A DNA stretch of 63,617 nucleotides from Planctomycetia bacterium (GTDB taxonomy: Bacteria > Planctomycetota > Planctomycetia > Pirellulales > JALHLM01). Both the position numbers and the translations under genes were made by a program. Shown piece by piece: positions 29,991 through 37,047 of this stretch; positions within the stretch are counted from its first letter, which is position 1, and each line of letters begins with the position of its first letter. Below the pieces are notes generated by a model, which had not been told where the DNA came from, did no database searches, and saw only the letters and a program-made list of their open reading frames with translations. The stretch lies in NCBI GenBank assembly GCA_034440135.1, contig JAWXBP010000280.1, positions 1 through 63,617 of the forward strand. The letters run 5' to 3'.

Positions 29991-32119
29991 ACTTGTTGCT
30001 GGCGCAAACGTCGTCGGGCATTGACTGGGCGGCGTGGGGCGCGAATATCGGCTACGCCGTGTTGGCGGCGCTCGGCGTCGGCGCGGTGATTTTCATCCAC
30101 GAACTGGGGCACTTCGCCGTCGCCAAGTGGTGCGGCGTGAAGTGCGAGAAGTTCTACATCGGCTTCGGTAAGCCGCTGGTGAAATTCCAGTGGGGCGAAA
30201 CCGAGTACGGCATCGGCATGATCCCGCTGGGCGGTTATGTGAAGATGCTGGGCCAGGATGACAATCCCAGTTCGGCGGCCGCGGAAATTGAGCGCGCGCG
30301 CCTTGATCAAGGAGGCGGCGCGGAACTGCCGACCTACGACCCGCGCAGCTATATGGCCAAAACGGTGCCGCAGCGGATGGCGATCATTTCGGCCGGCGTG
30401 ATCATGAATTTGATCTTCGCCGTCGTGGTGGCCTCGGTCGCTTACGGCATTGGCGTCGAAGATTCGCCGTGCAAGGTCGGCGGCACGGTCCCGGGCGGCG
30501 GCGCGTGGAAGGCAAACCTGCTGCCGGGCGACACGATCGTGGCGATCAACGGCGAACCGGTGAAGCGTTTCGACGATTTGAAGAGCAAGATTGCGCTGGG
30601 CGAACATGACGGCGGCGCGCGGATTCACTTCATCCGTGCCGGCGAGAAAGACGTGCGCGAAGCGATCGTCCAGCCGAACACCAAAGACATCATGCCGATG
30701 ATCGGCGTGATGATGGCTTTCGAAAACCAATTGCACGAAAAAGAACCGTTTGTTCCGGGATCACCGGCTGCGAATGCAACTCCGCCGTTCGAAAAGGGGG
30801 ACAAGATCGTCCGGATCGGCGATACGCAAATCAACAGCTACGCCGACGTGCAACGCATTTTGGCTGACGAAGCTTCGAAATCACTGCAAGTCACCGTGCA
30901 ACGCAAGAAGGCGGTTTCCGAGACCGTCGAAGAGATCACGACGTCGGTTGATCCCGCGCCGCTGCGGACGCTGGGCGTTCAGATGCGACTGGGACCAGTT
31001 CGCGCCGTGCAGGACGATTCCCCGGCGGCGGAGGTGGATGTGGTCACGAAGGCCCCGGCGGGCGATCAGCATGTAGGCGCTGCGATCTCCGCACGCGGGC
31101 TGCGCGCCGGCGACTTGATCGTTTCAGTCAATGGCCTGGACAACATCGACCCGATGAAACTGCCGGAAATGATGCGGCAATTGGCCGGCATGCCCGTCAT
31201 GCTCAAGGTGCAGCGGGACGGCGAAAAATTGGACGTGGAGATTACGCCACGTGCCCACACTGCCTTCGAAGGCGCTCAATCGTTTTCTGAGAAAGGCATC
31301 TCCGTGCCGGCGTTGGGGATTGTTTGCGAGGTGGTCAATAACATCCAGGCGATCGAGCCGGACAGTAGCGCGGCAAAAGCTGGCTTAAAGCTCAATGACA
31401 AGATCGAATGGGTCGAAGCGGTGCCGGCCGATGAGGACGCAGAGGAATCGAATCGACCAGCGGCCACGAACCAAGACGAGGAATACGAGCCGTCCGTCGC
31501 CGCTCAACGGCTCAAGAAGGCGCATCGTTTCGGCGAGGGCATCGAGGAACTGGATTGGCCGCTCTTGATGACGTTTGTTCAAGACTTGCGCGACGGAGAG
31601 AAGCTGCGCATCAAGGTGGCGAATCGTGAACCGGTCGTGATCGAGCCGTACATTTCCACCGATGAGTTTTACCCGGAGCGTGGCTTCGTCTTTACTAGCG
31701 AGAAGTTCACCATTCAGGCGACGTCGTTCCAAGAGGCTTTGGGTTTTGGACTGACGGAAACCTGGAAGCAGTCGACGCGCGTCTACAGCTTTATCAAAGG
31801 TTTGATTTACCAGCGCGTGTCGGTGAAAGGCGCGGGCGGGCCCATCACGATCGCCCAAGGCGCGTTCTACCTGGCCGGCAAGGGTTGGAGTCCGTTCTTG
31901 ATTTTTCTGGTGGCGCTGAGCGCCAACCTGGCGGTCATTAACTTCCTGCCGATTCCGGTGCTCGATGGCGGGCATTTTGTGTTCTTGACGTTGGAAGGCC
32001 TGCGCGGCAAGCCGGTCAGCGAGAAGGTGTTTATCGGCTTCACTTATGCCGGACTCGCGTTCCTGTTGATGGTGATGGGCTTTGTGCTTTGGCTCGACGT
32101 CTCGCGCATGGTTTCCTGA
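29981..32119 (+). CDS. rseP: Site-2 zinc metalloprotease RseP with extra PDZ domains
   Basis: A 712-residue polytopic protease from the ATG at 29981; the ATG at 29987 is also possible. It overlaps the end of dxr. RseP cleaves anti-sigma factors and leftover signal peptides in the membrane. Seen: the zinc site HELGH (40-44) in the first helix, KFYIGFGKPLVKFQWGETEY, an RMAIISAGVIMNLIFAVVVA helix, then PDZ-like units at about 160-215, 260-310, 360-415 and 440-480 (each with a LLPGDTIV/KGDKIV/RAGDLIV/LNDKIE core), and the C-terminal third zinc ligand in NFLPIPVLDGGH followed by a last helix. E. coli RseP has two PDZ domains and 450 residues; this one has about four. Confidence 0.93.
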   Translation: MCMNLLLAQTSSGIDWAAWGANIGYAVLAALGVGAVIFIHELGHFAVAKWCGVKCEKFYIGFGKPLVKFQWGETEYGIGMIPLGGYVKMLGQDDNPSSAAAEIERARLDQGGGAELPTYDPRSYMAKTVPQRMAIISAGVIMNLIFAVVVASVAYGIGVEDSPCKVGGTVPGGGAWKANLLPGDTIVAINGEPVKRFDDLKSKIALGEHDGGARIHFIRAGEKDVREAIVQPNTKDIMPMIGVMMAFENQLHEKEPFVPGSPAANATPPFEKGDKIVRIGDTQINSYADVQRILADEASKSLQVTVQRKKAVSETVEEITTSVDPAPLRTLGVQMRLGPVRAVQDDSPAAEVDVVTKAPAGDQHVGAAISARGLRAGDLIVSVNGLDNIDPMKLPEMMRQLAGMPVMLKVQRDGEKLDVEITPRAHTAFEGAQSFSEKGISVPALGIVCEVVNNIQAIEPDSSAAKAGLKLNDKIEWVEAVPADEDAEESNRPAATNQDEEYEPSVAAQRLKKAHRFGEGIEELDWPLLMTFVQDLRDGEKLRIKVANREPVVIEPYISTDEFYPERGFVFTSEKFTIQATSFQEALGFGLTETWKQSTRVYSFIKGLIYQRVSVKGAGGPITIAQGAFYLAGKGWSPFLIFLVALSANLAVINFLPIPVLDGGHFVFLTLEGLRGKPVSEKVFIGFTYAGLAFLLMVMGFVLWLDVSRMVS

Positions 32120-32808
32120 TGCGTTGGCGGGAGTTACTTGGCCCGGCGGCGGAAAACGTCCGGGCCGTTTTGTTCGACGCCGTCGGCACCTTAATCACGC
32201 CGACCACGTCGGTCGCCGAGGTTTATTTCGACTTCGGCCAACGGCGCGGTTCACGGCTTGAGACGAAGGAAATCGCGGCTCGCTTTCCGGCCGCCCTGCG
32301 CGCTGCGGAGGTCTGCCAAGGACGCAGCGACGAGCGCATCGAGCTCGACCGCTGGCGGGCTGTCGTCCGGCATGTGTTTGACGATCTGCCCGAAACCGAG
32401 CCGCTCTTTCGCGAGCTATGGGCCCATTTCGCCGAGCCGCATAGTTGGCGGCTTGTTCCCCGGGCCGTCGAATTACTGGAAGGTCTGATCGCGGAGAATT
32501 ACCTGGTCGGCGTCGCTTCCAATTTTGACGCGCGGTTGAGGACAGTGCTGAGTGGTCCGAATCGCGTGCCTGCGGCAGTGAATCTTTTCATTTCGTCCGA
32601 CTTGGGCTGGCAGAAGCCTCACACTGGCTACTTCCGCGGCGTGGAACGGGCGCTGGGATTGTCCCCGCAGGAACTATTGCTGATCGGCGATGATTGGGAC
32701 AACGACGTCTGCGGCGGCCGAAGCGCTGGGTGGCAGACGATCTGGGTCGCGCCCACGACCTCGGCAGACAGCCCGAGCGTCGCCTCGTTGGCGGAGCTTT
32801 GCGACTGA
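32119..32808 (+). CDS. HAD-superfamily hydrolase (HDHD3/dehalogenase-like)
   Basis: A 229-residue protein whose ATG overlaps the rseP stop (TGATG), so it is translationally coupled. Seen: motif I VLFDAVGTLITP (about 27-38) with the nucleophile Asp but Val in place of the second Asp, a helical cap, motif II region LVGVASNFDAR, motif III Lys in LGWQKPHTGYF, and motif IV LLIGDDWDNDVCGG. The replacement of the second Asp is seen in 2-haloacid dehalogenases and in HDHD3-like proteins, so simple phosphatase activity should not be assumed. Substrate unknown. Its place after dxr-rseP may be only transcriptional convenience. Confidence 0.85.
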   Translation: MRWRELLGPAAENVRAVLFDAVGTLITPTTSVAEVYFDFGQRRGSRLETKEIAARFPAALRAAEVCQGRSDERIELDRWRAVVRHVFDDLPETEPLFRELWAHFAEPHSWRLVPRAVELLEGLIAENYLVGVASNFDARLRTVLSGPNRVPAAVNLFISSDLGWQKPHTGYFRGVERALGLSPQELLLIGDDWDNDVCGGRSAGWQTIWVAPTTSADSPSVASLAELCD

Positions 32809-32942
32809 TCTTGACCCGTTGCCGGGCATTCAGGAGACTTTTGCCGCCTGGGGGAACCATGCGCGCCCGTGGATGGGTTCTCCGAATCAACACAATCGGC
32901 CGCCAAGGATGGCGGAGACCGTTCAGCAACAGGAGTATTGCG

Positions 32943-33617
32943 ATGTCCCAGCGTTATTGGCTGGCCGTGAGTCTGATGTGCACCGCGGCGTTGTTTGGCT
33001 GCGGCGATTCGACTGCGCCGACGACCGAGGCGGCCGACTCGTCTGCGATCGAGGCCGAAGGAGCCGTCGAGGCCTCGTCCGGCGATGCAACGACCGGGCC
33101 GAAACAGGCGCTGAACGATTTTCTCCGCGCCGTCAAAGCTGGCGACGACGAAGGGGCCGCGGCAATGCTGACCACGGTCGCGCGGCAGAAGACATCCGAA
33201 ATGGGATTGAACGTCGCCCCGCCGGGAAGCGATACCGCCACGTTCAAGATCAACCAGGTGGAAATGAAGGGGAGCAACGGCGCCTATGTGGCCTGCGCTT
33301 GGACCGAGACCGACGCCGAAGGGAATCAATCCACGGACGAAGTCGTGTGGGTGATGGCTCGCGAAGAAGCCGGCTGGCGGATTGCCGGCATGGTGGCCAA
33401 GGTGTTTCCTGACATGGCCGCGATCGTCTTCAATTTCGAAAACCCGGAAGACATGATTCGAAAGCAGGAGTCGGCCCAGCAAGAAATGGAGCGCCGAGCC
33501 GCCGCAGCGCTCGGAGAATTGACCGGAAATCCCCCCGAAGGTGGCGGTCAAAATGCTGCCGAAACTCCACCTGTTAGCGAAGAAACAGCGACTTCCGCTG
33601 GCCGGCCGCGCCGCTAG
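32943..33617 (+). CDS. Lipoprotein of unknown function
   Basis: A 224-residue protein from the ATG at 32943, with AGGAG at 32931-32935. Seen: a lipoprotein signal peptide with a lipobox ending FGC (Cys20 in AALFGCGDS), an acidic Ala/Ser/Glu-rich linker (about 22-50), a domain with ALNDFLRAVKAGDDEGAAAM and a helix-then-sheet order ending EAGWRIAGMVAKVFPD (about 52-155), and a C-terminal Glu/Gln/Pro-rich tail. The folded part resembles NTF2-like or DUF4878-type domains (short helix, then strands with a WRI strand); this is a tentative inference. It is followed by a terminator, so it ends the transcript. Confidence 0.7.
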   Translation: MSQRYWLAVSLMCTAALFGCGDSTAPTTEAADSSAIEAEGAVEASSGDATTGPKQALNDFLRAVKAGDDEGAAAMLTTVARQKTSEMGLNVAPPGSDTATFKINQVEMKGSNGAYVACAWTETDAEGNQSTDEVVWVMAREEAGWRIAGMVAKVFPDMAAIVFNFENPEDMIRKQESAQQEMERRAAAALGELTGNPPEGGGQNAAETPPVSEETATSAGRPRR

Positions 33618-33681
33618 CGATCGACGCAAATGGTTACTCAGCGAGTAGTTGCGTACTGTTGATAACCAGCCGAAGTTGCCA

Positions 33682-33712
33682 AGAGACCTCGTCCCACGGG
33701 GTCTCTTTTTTT
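33682..33712 (+). terminator. Intrinsic terminator after the lipoprotein gene
   Basis: AGAGACC and GGTCTCT arms enclose an 11-base loop and are followed by a run of T. Confidence 0.85.
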
Positions 33713-34070
33713 GTGCGCATTTTTTTCACCACACGTGTTGATTGTGTCCTACAGTTGAGCGAAGAGTCGTTGCAGTAAACCCAGAATGCCTGGTCGACCC
33801 AGAGGTCACACGTTACCAGGCGGGCGGTTGACAGCATGACTCGAAATGCTAACCTAGCGACCTAGCCTGTGCAGTCGTTACGTCTTGCTTAACCCTCAAG
33901 GGCCATGCCTTGGAGGGTCGGTGAGATCGCGGCGGCGGCATCGGCTCGAGGTGGACTCTCCCAGTTTGTGTTGGTCGTCCGGATACGGGGGAGCGGAAAG
34001 CATCTCGGACGGCCGACGCGTTTCCAATACCCCTTCGGTACGGTACCTGTTGTTTTTGGAGGATTCGAGG
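33713..34070. other. Intergenic stretch before the RCHG-repeat gene
   Basis: No gene is supported. A short palindrome GGTACGGTACC lies just before the ribosome-binding site of the following gene, at about 34037-34047. A promoter must be here, but no clear -35/-10 pair stands out. Confidence 0.45.
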
Positions 34071-34532
34071 ATGAATCGTGCATTGGTTCTTGGCATCGCG
34101 ATTTTTTGCGCGGTGGTGGGCCTGACCCTCGTGGGCGGGACCAGCAAAGCGGTCGCCGGTCACGGCTGTGGTTGCTCGTGCGACGGCGGATGCAGCGCCT
34201 GTGATGGCGGCTGCAGCAGCTCGTGTGACGGTGGCTGCCACAGCAGCTGCCACGGCGGTCTGTTCTCCGGTCGTTGCCACGGCCGTTGCCATGGTCGTTG
34301 CCATGGTCGTTGCCATGGTCGTTGCCACGGCCGCTGCCATGGTCGTTGCCATGGTCGTTGCCACGGCGGTTGCAATGGTGGCTGCAACGGCGGAAGCTGC
34401 AGCGGCGGTTGCGATGGCGGTTGCCACGGTGGCGAAGTGATCGAAGAAGCCGCTCCGGCGGAAGAAGCCGCTCCGGCTGCCCCGACGGATGCTCGCGTGC
34501 GCGGCCTGCGCAGCGGCGCGTTCCGTAGCTAA
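34071..34532 (+). CDS. Exported Cys/His/Gly-rich protein with RCHG repeats
   Basis: A 153-residue protein from the ATG at 34071; GGAGGA at 34058-34063 is a good ribosome-binding site. Seen: a signal peptide (about 1-30, LGIAIFCAVVGLTLVGG, cleavage near AVAG), then a Cys-rich region with CDGGC units, eight tandem RCHG tetrapeptides (DNA 34272-34367, 12-base units with CAC/CAT and GGC/GGT variation), then GCNGGC and CDGGCHGG units, and a Glu/Ala/Pro tail. More than twenty Cys and about ten His in about 85 residues suggest metal binding or disulfide cross-linking outside the cytoplasm. I do not recognise a family. A terminator follows, so it is a single-gene transcript. Confidence 0.75.
   Translation: MNRALVLGIAIFCAVVGLTLVGGTSKAVAGHGCGCSCDGGCSACDGGCSSSCDGGCHSSCHGGLFSGRCHGRCHGRCHGRCHGRCHGRCHGRCHGRCHGGCNGGCNGGSCSGGCDGGCHGGEVIEEAAPAEEAAPAAPTDARVRGLRSGAFRS
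34272..34367 (+). repeat. Eight tandem 12-bp units coding RCHG
   Basis: Units of the form CGT-TGC-CAY-GGY in one reading frame. Third-position variation between units (CAC GGC versus CAT GGT) falls in a pattern that suggests duplication of multi-unit blocks. Confidence 0.9.
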
Positions 34533-34596
34533 CTTCTCGAACCGATCAACCGGCCTTCCCCGCGAACGGCCGGCAAATATCGGAACTCGCATAAAG

Positions 34597-34629
34597 AGCC
34601 GGGCCCTGTCAAAGGGGCCCGGCTTTTTT
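34597..34629 (+). terminator. Strong intrinsic terminator
   Basis: AGCCGGGCCC and GGGCCCGGCT arms with a short loop are followed by a T run. It ends the transcript of the RCHG-repeat gene. Confidence 0.92.
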
Positions 34630-34678
34630 GTTGCGCCCCTGGTTGGCGGTGCGGCGCGGAGGAGTAGGCGGGGGTGGG

Positions 34679-34822
34679 AATGACGAATTTCTAAATCTGA
34701 ATGTCGAATGAATGACGAATGTTCAAATGTCGAATGGTCCAGAGCGGTAGCCGGGCCTCGAAGAAAATTCGACATTCGTCATTCGGACTTGATTCGACAT
34801 TCAGATTTAGAAATTCGTCATT
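34679..34822. repeat. 144-bp element with perfect 31-bp terminal inverted repeats
   Basis: The 31 bases at 34679-34709 (beginning AATGACGAATTTCTAAATCT) and the 31 bases at 34792-34822 are perfect inverse copies. The centre has further ATGTCGAAT words. A rearranged relative lies at 47932-48084 between groES and groEL. No coding capacity. Confidence 0.9.
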
Positions 34823-34980
34823 CATGACTGCGCTTTATAGCGTTGCTGTGCGTTAGCGCGACGGGGCGGCATTTCATGAAACGGCCCGTGTCGCAGCGTC
34901 GATGCTAGCAAGGTCGCATCCGGCTTGCCGCAACCTCTCGCTCGGCATGCGCGTGGCGCGATTCCTCCGCTGGCTTGCAT

Positions 34981-35751
34981 ATGCCTGACTCCCCGCAGCC
35001 TGCCGTTCGGACGTTGTCCGACAACGCGCGAACAACGATCAGCTTCCTGCTGTTTGTGCATCTGTTCGCGCTCGGCGTGGCGATTCTGTCGAATACCAGC
35101 CCGCTGCCAGAACCGGGCGAGGCCGCCCTGCCGGATCTCAAACGGCAGCTGCGACAGGTGCCGGGCGTGGTGCCGTATTTGCTGGCGCTGAACATGGATT
35201 ACGGCTACATCGGCGGTGATCGCTACCAGGGGGCCGACTACCATCTGACGCACTATACGCCGTGGGACTTGCCGTATCGCATTGAGTTGACGCTCAACCT
35301 TCCGGATGGCGGCGGCGAAACGACGGTCGTGATTCCGAATGAAACGCTGCAGCCTCGCCTGCGACGTTTGCGCTACCAGATGCTGGCTTCGCGGACGGCG
35401 CGGCTGGAGGGCTTCGACGGGCCGGACGTGCAGATTCCCCATGCCGTCGCGACTCACTATGTGAATCTGTTCCAGGCGACCGGGGGACGGCTGCGTTGCC
35501 TCGCGGAGTTCGAGCGGCCGATGTTGGAATTGAACAATTTCAATCCTTCCATGGCGCAAGAGCTTCCGGCGCTTCCGACGAATACAGTGCTTGATCTTTA
35601 TGTGCTCGTCGCGAATGGTAAAGTCTCGCTGTTGAATGCGGAGTCGGCCCGCGACGCGGCGGCGCCTTCCACGACATCCAACGGGGCGGAGGGTGAAGGT
35701 ACAACGCCGCCCGCGGCGCCTGACATGACCGTGCGGCCCGACGTCCAATAG
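34981..35751 (+). CDS. Single-pass membrane protein paired with an HTTM gene
   Basis: A 256-residue protein from the ATG at 34981; the frame is open a little further but only to a TTG. Seen: a short cytoplasmic N-terminus, one TM helix (about 21-38, TISFLLFVHLFALGVAIL), then an extracytoplasmic domain of about 170 residues with VPYLLALNMDYGYIGGDRYQ, RIELTLNLPDGGGETTVVIP and an HAVATHYVNLFQATGGRLRC segment, and a Pro/Thr/Ser tail. I do not recognise a named family. It ends 20 bases before the HTTM-family gene on the same strand, so the two are probably one unit and may work together. Confidence 0.65.
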   Translation: MPDSPQPAVRTLSDNARTTISFLLFVHLFALGVAILSNTSPLPEPGEAALPDLKRQLRQVPGVVPYLLALNMDYGYIGGDRYQGADYHLTHYTPWDLPYRIELTLNLPDGGGETTVVIPNETLQPRLRRLRYQMLASRTARLEGFDGPDVQIPHAVATHYVNLFQATGGRLRCLAEFERPMLELNNFNPSMAQELPALPTNTVLDLYVLVANGKVSLLNAESARDAAAPSTTSNGAEGEGTTPPAAPDMTVRPDVQ

Positions 35752-35771
35752 TCCATGGAGCTGAGGGCGCG

Positions 35772-36770
35772 ATGCGCAACGCCATTTTAGAATACTTCCA
35801 CCAATTTCTGTCCGGCGAGGCCTGGAATCAGTTCTGGTACGAAGCCCGGGACGCGCGAGTGATTTCGCTGATGCGGATCGGCGTTGGCGCGATCGCGTTA
35901 TTCGCGCTGCTCTGCTACACGCCGGACTTGATCAAGTTCTTCGGGCCATCGGGTTTGTTGCCGGCGAATACCGTTCGCGCGGTGATGTTCGCCGAAGAGG
36001 CGACGCCGGACAAGCCGTCGTTCTTGTACGGCAGCTTCCTGATGTCGTTCAATTACCTCGCCTGGTTCGAAAACGAACCGGCGATGTTATGGGGCGCTCA
36101 CGGAGTCGGTATCGCCATCTTGCTCGCGTTTGTCGTGGGGCTCAAAACCCGCGTGACGTCGGTGTTGGCGCTGATCGTCACGTTGACTTATATCCACCGC
36201 GGGCAGGTGCTCAATGCGCAGTTGGAACCCATCGTCTCGATGGTAATGGCTTATCTGTGCCTGGGGCCCTGCGGCGCGTATTACTCTGTCGACCGCTGTC
36301 TGCAGTTGCGAAAGCAACCACTCGCCAAGGTTGAACCGAGCATCGGCGCGAACATCGCCACGCGGCTCCTGCAGATTCACTTGTCGGCGATCTACGTGAT
36401 GATGGCGTTCGGCAAGTTGGTTCGATTGGGCGTGGCCGACGGCGCGGTCTGGTGGTCGGGCGACGCCGTGTGGTGGTTGATCGCCAAGCCGGGCGGGAGC
36501 CTGGTCGACTTGACGTGGTTGCACTCGCATCCTTATATGATCGACGCCTGGACGCAGGCGATCGTGTTCTTCGAGCTGGGCTTTGGGATCTTCGTCTGGA
36601 AGCGCTGGGCGCGCCCGGCGTTGCTCGTGTTGGCCGTGCCAATGTGGCTGAGCCTGGCGGTGCTGACAGGGTTGATCCCGTGGTGTCTGATGATGCTCGT
36701 GGCGAACCTGGCGTTCGTGCGGCCGGATGATTGTTGTGGCGCTGGGCACGCGCCGCGGCCGGCGCTGTGA
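35772..36770 (+). CDS. HTTM-domain membrane protein (vitamin K gamma-carboxylase-like)
   Basis: A 332-residue polytopic protein. Seen: LMRIGVGAIALFALLCYTPD at the start of the first span, FFGPSGLLPANTVR, at least six further hydrophobic segments, LGPCGAYYSVDRCLQLRKQP, a His-containing IHRGQVLNAQLE loop and a LQIHLSAIYVMMAFGKLVRL segment. These are landmarks of the HTTM (horizontally transferred transmembrane) family, related to the membrane part of vitamin K-dependent gamma-carboxylase. Planctomycetes carry many such genes. The reaction is unknown for nearly all bacterial members; gamma-carboxylation should not be assumed. The 3' end faces the phosphatase gene across a repeat element. Confidence 0.82.
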   Translation: MRNAILEYFHQFLSGEAWNQFWYEARDARVISLMRIGVGAIALFALLCYTPDLIKFFGPSGLLPANTVRAVMFAEEATPDKPSFLYGSFLMSFNYLAWFENEPAMLWGAHGVGIAILLAFVVGLKTRVTSVLALIVTLTYIHRGQVLNAQLEPIVSMVMAYLCLGPCGAYYSVDRCLQLRKQPLAKVEPSIGANIATRLLQIHLSAIYVMMAFGKLVRLGVADGAVWWSGDAVWWLIAKPGGSLVDLTWLHSHPYMIDAWTQAIVFFELGFGIFVWKRWARPALLVLAVPMWLSLAVLTGLIPWCLMMLVANLAFVRPDDCCGAGHAPRPAL

Positions 36771-36904
36771 ATGAACGCAGAGCGCGGGTGAGGTAGCTGT
36801 TGAGAGTTTGGTCCGCAATTTGTATCGCGGCGTCCACTCTCCCTCGCTGGCGCTATGGGCTGGTGATTCGTCACGCTTCGATTTTTTGAATAGTTGAGAA
36901 CGGC

Positions 36905-37047
36905 GGGTGCCTGGGGCTGCGGCGTGCGAATGCCGCGGCCAAGCCGTATCAACGGGGGCATCGTTTCGACTTGTTGATCAACTCAACGATGCCCAACAAA
37001 GATGGACCATTGTGAACGTGATGTTAGTGCCCCTGCCCCAGGCACCC
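36905..37047. repeat. 143-bp nested inverted-repeat element, copy 1
   Basis: GGGTGCCTGGGGCTG at 36905-36919 and CTGCCCCAGGCACCC at 37033-37047 are inverted arms with 14 of 15 matching. A second hairpin lies inside (GGGGCATCGTT with AACGATGCCC). A copy of the same length lies at 50294-50436. Both copies separate convergent genes. Confidence 0.85.

Follow-up and report, generated by a model that had tools for sequence, protein, structure and literature searches.

The window, the whole 63,617-nucleotide stretch of planctomycete DNA analysed here, holds at 34,071-34,532 a reading frame for a small protein with tandem Cys-containing repeats, and the question it raises is whether this frame is a gene, what its product might do and how its expression is set. 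Disulfide-linked protein has long been described as abundant in planctomycete envelopes, yet few of the proteins concerned are known.

Protein sequence and predicted structure

The frame and its parts are:
34,071-34,532, + strand: predicted Cys-rich exported protein, 153 aa, ATG start, no internal stop
34,071-34,157, + strand: signal/anchor helix MNRALVLGIAIFCAVVGLTLVGGTSKAVA, residues 1-29, AxA|G site; predicted helix, best-conserved part
34,272-34,367, + strand: eight RCHG units in tandem

The preliminary description, made from the letters of the DNA, had reported an exported protein in which a signal peptide is followed by CDGGC units and eight tandem RCHG tetrapeptides, with more than twenty Cys and about ten His outside the membrane. 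These elements were all seen in the translation of 34,071-34,532, MNRALVLGIAIFCAVVGLTLVGGTSKAVAG-HGCGCSCDGGCSACDGGCSSSCDGGCHSSCHGGLFSG-(RCHG)x8-GCNGGCNGGSCSGGCDGGCHGG-...-RGLRSGAFRS, which has four CDGGC units and carries 22 Cys and 12 His beyond residue 29 and the AxA|G site. AlphaFold2 predicted one helix at residues 3-21 (pLDDT ~91), in agreement with export, which we infer from the N-terminal head. Residues 35-121, the Cys part, were modelled without a confident fold, which is weak evidence as it is expected for any low-complexity protein, and a search of solved structures with the window protein gave no match. Conservation of the signal region exceeds what is usual for signal peptides, so that it could be an anchor that stays uncleaved or could serve some other purpose.

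Gene status and selection

Across the first 97 codons, the window and its congener (G001) differed by 12 synonymous codon changes and no non-synonymous one, and the eight RCHG units varied among themselves at third codon positions only; because of these two patterns the protein frame is considered to be under selection, and 34,071-34,532 is a real gene under purifying selection. We give next to no credence to the view that the frame is a by-product of DNA repeat slippage without a functional protein: the repeats are of low complexity and the other reading frames are likewise open, but the codon pattern already refutes slippage, and orthologues across the order share the head, the promoter, the ribosome-binding site and the synteny. 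Homologues with an open frame were found in other planctomycetes, and not the missing homologues or broken frames that the preliminary description had named as grounds for giving it up.

Family distribution and conserved features

A single-protein search gave a match in 40 of 57 genomes (the window's own included), most with one match, and a profile search gave a match in 71 of 297 genomes of the class. Every match better than E 1e-14 fell within the same order, Pirellulales. Where contigs with matches are named, the name is Pirellulales, Pirellula, Pirellulaceae or Planctomycetaceae, and in a few cases a broader or another planctomycete one. Most examined members of the order thus carry the Cys-rich exported protein, usually in single copy; the family was absent or undetected in all the f7 genomes listed and in part of f15 and f17, so that it is not universally required. 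The weaker protein matches outside the order were, where read, proteins of another kind; of the six read, four (L120-L123) were Cys-rich proteins in which, by eye, a TIGR03000-like stretch follows.

In the protein alignment (A1), a near-invariant head, MNRxLxFGIAIFFAVVGIALVGGexxAxAGHGC, is followed by a Cys-rich stretch of free order and length and then by an Ala/Pro-rich part, and many members end in FRxVxFRR. The Cys-rich slot is filled by lineage, with RCHG in the window and CHGC, CCAPEPT, CCGRDR or CSGS in relatives, and repeat units and Cys spacing vary between lineages. RCHG is only the local version and was rejected as a defining motif, since orthologues retain Cys and swap RCHG for quite different Cys units. 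Among 45 members the Cys count was steady (mean 18.3, CV 0.20), the His count was unsteady (mean 8.0, range 1-21, CV 0.49), and the Cys number was odd in 25. The family is a clear case in which selection keeps amino-acid composition, not sequence. A reading of FRxVxFRR as a general C-terminal sorting tag was rejected, the pattern retrieving the Cys-rich family and scattered single matches per genome.

Promoter and leader RNA

The upstream elements are:
33,828-33,855, + strand: promoter TTGACA-N13-TGC-TAACCT (extended -10), the same 28-base box across family loci
33,862-34,070, + strand: 5′ leader of ~209 nt, with a start predicted from the promoter (alignment A3 of 31 leaders)
33,956-34,013, + strand: H-type pseudoknot, window version, from family covariation; window copy diverged
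33,956-33,962 and 33,987-33,993, + strand: window stem 1, CTCTCCC/GGGGGAG, with internal loop
33,974-33,979 and 34,008-34,013, + strand: window stem 2, GTCGTC/GACGGC, with one U-G pair
34,058-34,063, + strand: ribosome-binding site GGAGGA, from sequence, conserved in the family

Both the conserved promoter and the leader RNA had gone unnoticed in the preliminary description, and the fixed-spacing promoter followed by a ~200-nt leader with an H-type pseudoknot is what is new here. The box TTGACA-N13-TGN-TAAC(C/T)T was found in 37 of 48 family loci, mostly 227-267 bases upstream of the start codon, as against 0.2% of shuffled leaders. The first 70 nt of the leader carry a conserved CCTAGCCT...GCAAYCGGYAAAGCTTACA block in relatives; in the window this block (33,862-33,935) is decayed, and part of it differs sharply from G001 while the remainder is near-identical.

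Whole-leader minimum-energy folding gave z from -1.6 to +1.2, with signal only in the aligned pseudoknot block. In family leaders, GCCGTC-N20-30-GACGGC sits ~50 nt before the start codon, and these hexamers, which form stem 2, pair in 215 of 216 cells; stem 2 is little variable, so that its support rests on few replacements (ACCGTC/GACGGT, GCCGTT/AGCGGC and GCCGCC/GGCGGC, giving A-U, U-A and C-G pairs). The bases flanking GCCGTC form stem 1, a crossing stem of ~7-12 pairs with a different sequence in almost every lineage (for example CCTTCGGTC/GACCGAAGG, CGCTCGGC/GCCGAGCG, TGCGTTCGC/GCGAACGCA and CTCCGAT/ATCGGAG). RNAalifold on the MAFFT alignment of all leaders returned the GCCGTC/GACGGC stem only, and stem 1 emerged only after alignment on the GCCGTC core. 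In 25 sequences, whose alignment was anchored to the hexamers rather than to stem 1, two-sided changes occurred at 10 of 10 stem-1 pairs, and covariation was 0.343 against 0.207 for shuffled sequences (0 of 500 reaching the observed value) and at most 0.259 when the partner was slid, in statistics that ignore relatedness and concern a stem noticed on the same sequences. Every other measure likewise had 0 of 500 shuffles reaching the observed value except "further pair types" (4 of 500), and sliding the partner lowered the paired cells from 83% to at most 58%. The hexamer pair is also kept in further leaders that were read afterwards (L074, L081, L082, L090, L098, L099 and L102), and in L102 and L074 stem-1 sequences that lie outside the model pair too. 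With a loop that pairs with a downstream strand and compensatory changes in both stems, a conserved, covarying H-type pseudoknot precedes the Cys-rich gene in the family. An Rfam covariance-model search of 32,000-37,000 of the window and of 12 homologous loci placed the leader in no family; the miRNA and isrG matches it returned lay within repeats and below gathering scores, and were set aside as chance.

A model of the leader (R1) gave 21 hits at E<0.08 in the 57 genomes, all of them, by coordinates or by reading, just before a family start codon; most genomes with hits had also supplied model sequences, the ones that had not being G032, G025, G035 and G054, and G032 and G025 were hit despite giving no match in the single-protein search. 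Hits above E 0.09, where read, were unrelated sequence or lay upstream of the Cys-rich gene, and in the wider class sample a single hit (G114, E 0.019) fell outside the order, near chance expectation. The leader RNA is thus specific to the Cys-rich gene. The window's own leader was not reported by R1 in a search of its own genome; stem 2 is kept there with its U-G pair and stem 1 is interrupted or weak, and a pseudoknot in the window species is presumed from position and stem 2, not from score.

Gene neighbourhood and 3′ end

Around the gene lie:
32,943-33,617, + strand: lipoprotein with NTF2-like fold, upstream neighbour, syntenic with the Cys-rich gene in most loci
33,681-33,707: terminator-like site between lipoprotein and Cys-rich gene, from consensus scan
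34,543-34,585, + strand: 3′ UTR hairpin, with CCCTG loop in many relatives
34,597-34,629, + strand: intrinsic terminator, stem 34,597-34,606/34,615-34,624 plus T-run, from sequence and fold

The strong terminator and the gene's own ribosome-binding site had both been proposed before and are both present; the former was found by folding and missed by the consensus scan. The lipoprotein has no Pfam match above cut-off, and its predicted structure (pLDDT 78.6) matched ketosteroid-isomerase-like and CaMKII-hub structures. The conserved order is NTF2-like lipoprotein, Cys-rich gene and then two genes without Pfam match, one clearly a membrane protein, and the lipoprotein still adjoins the Cys-rich gene in several loci where the downstream genes were not seen.

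Many relatives have the CCCTG-loop hairpin between stop codon and terminator together with CAGGG in the leader. CCCTG was present in 19 of 20 loci with CAGGG and in 3 of 18 without (Fisher 1e-6, relatedness not removed), and complementarity of the flanks was no better within loci than between loci (p 0.32); because flank covariation is not significant, a long-range CAGGG:CCCTG contact is treated as a lead only.

Just past the terminator, at 34,681-34,832, GAATGACGAATTTCTAAATCTGAATGTCGAAT is followed ~100 bases further on by its complement, and a 36-base part of this inverted repeat has ten genome copies within 3 mismatches, two of them in the window (34,686 and 47,940). The repeat is a dispersed palindromic element.

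Proposed function and alternatives

The best reading, to which we give about even chances, is that of a disordered, disulfide-forming and possibly metal-binding envelope protein, monocistronic and tuned through its leader. The gene product would be small, Sec-exported and intrinsically disordered, and past the signal/anchor selection would act mainly on a high density of Cys along a flexible chain rich in Gly, Ala and Pro. Once beyond the cytoplasmic membrane, these Cys would most likely be joined in disulfides, both intra- and intermolecular, which could make the planctomycete cell envelope tougher; a role of this kind has been proposed for other Cys-rich wall proteins of planctomycetes. For the cross-linking we reason from a putative extracytoplasmic place, from conservation of composition only and from analogy to the known Cys-rich wall proteins (PMC8567305; PMC10632474); signal sequence and Cys richness, the marks of disulfide-linked planctomycete wall proteins, are both found by sequence and helix prediction, and a location in the envelope is likewise proposed.

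The earlier suggestion of a cross-linked mat or metal binding stays plausible, and metal binding is the main rival. It would make the protein an extracytoplasmic metallothionein-like buffer or scavenger of Zn, Cu, Ag or similar, with a leader that senses metal or redox state, and we consider it unlikely. The Cys and His density of the window protein and the CxxC pairs in most members speak for it, as does the pseudoknot, a kind of element able to bind a ligand; but conservation extends neither to His number nor to Cys spacing, the CCAPEPT repeats of several lineages come with few His, the recurrent neighbours of the family loci include no metal transporter or metal regulator, and neither the window protein nor the A1 members matched a metallothionein profile in Pfam. 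Since Cys is steady, His unsteady, units and spacing varied and Cys numbers often odd, loose and partly intermolecular cross-linking fits better than one fixed metal site. A conserved N-terminus before a variable Cys core would also suit a RiPP-like precursor of a modified peptide, with conserved leader and hypervariable core, which we regard as very improbable. The window protein shares a four-residue Cys repeat with TIGR04117 (Cys-Xaa-Xaa-Xaa repeat radical SAM target) and is weakly similar to it (E 0.011, 15.8 bits), but this is far under the cut-off of 50 bits, and only 1 of 34 members reached E<0.01. The conserved N-terminus is moreover a membrane helix, none of the window frames above 200 aa has the radical SAM motif CxxxCx[FYWHM]C, and no radical SAM or other modifying enzyme was recognised among recurrent neighbours of family loci.

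For the envelope protein, the conserved pseudoknot suggests that its gene is carefully regulated. Lying ~50 nt upstream of the start codon, the RNA probably adjusts how well this one gene is translated or how stable its mRNA is; because it occurs at one gene only, autoregulation or mRNA stability is favoured over a metabolite riboswitch with a wide regulon. That it represents a new class of gene-specific cis-regulatory RNA (riboswitch or autogenous control), adjusting a cross-linking envelope protein and perhaps acting with the CAGGG-CCCTG contact between 5′ and 3′ UTRs, is put forward tentatively and with some doubt. The protein is a compact, usually single-copy, order-wide envelope candidate open to deletion and tagging, and its covarying leader gives direct access to the way in which a cell controls the level of such a protein.

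Comparison with known systems

The icaR mRNA of Staphylococcus aureus (PMC3868564) is a model for the possible contact between leader CAGGG and 3′ UTR CCCTG; it differs in that the family flanks lack significant covariation and the leader site is not the ribosome-binding site.

Pfam and NCBIfam searches with the window protein (P0001), 34 members and the A1 members gave no fitting family, in line with the earlier remark that no named family has this pattern. Cell-wall proteins with the YTV domain (PF07639) are likewise planctomycete-specific, exported and Cys-rich, with a proposed role in wall rigidity; Cys-rich YTV proteins are present in planctomycete cell-wall preparations (PMC8567305), and the essential genes of P. 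limnophila include one YTV protein (PMC10632474). The window protein differs from them in having no YTV repeat and no sequence match (Pfam cut-off 21 bits, P0001 and A1 members), and the same genome carries separate YTV and TIGR03000 genes.

Among known kinds, the Cys-rich part of planctomycete TIGR03000 (plancto_dom_1) proteins comes closest; these proteins have a Cys-rich GCHGCYGC-like stretch behind an N-terminal hydrophobic segment. The TIGR03000 domain itself (cut-off 43.1 bits) is missing from the window protein; NCBIfam searches gave no match to it in P0001 or in the 34 members. No leader RNA was detected at the TIGR03000 paralogues of G021 and G022. Two paralogues from the same order, L058 (scored) and L127 (by eye), share even the MNR-type head and have this head and the Cys stretch fused to a TIGR03000-type region; by their sequences, these fusions suggest how the family and the TIGR03000 proteins are related.
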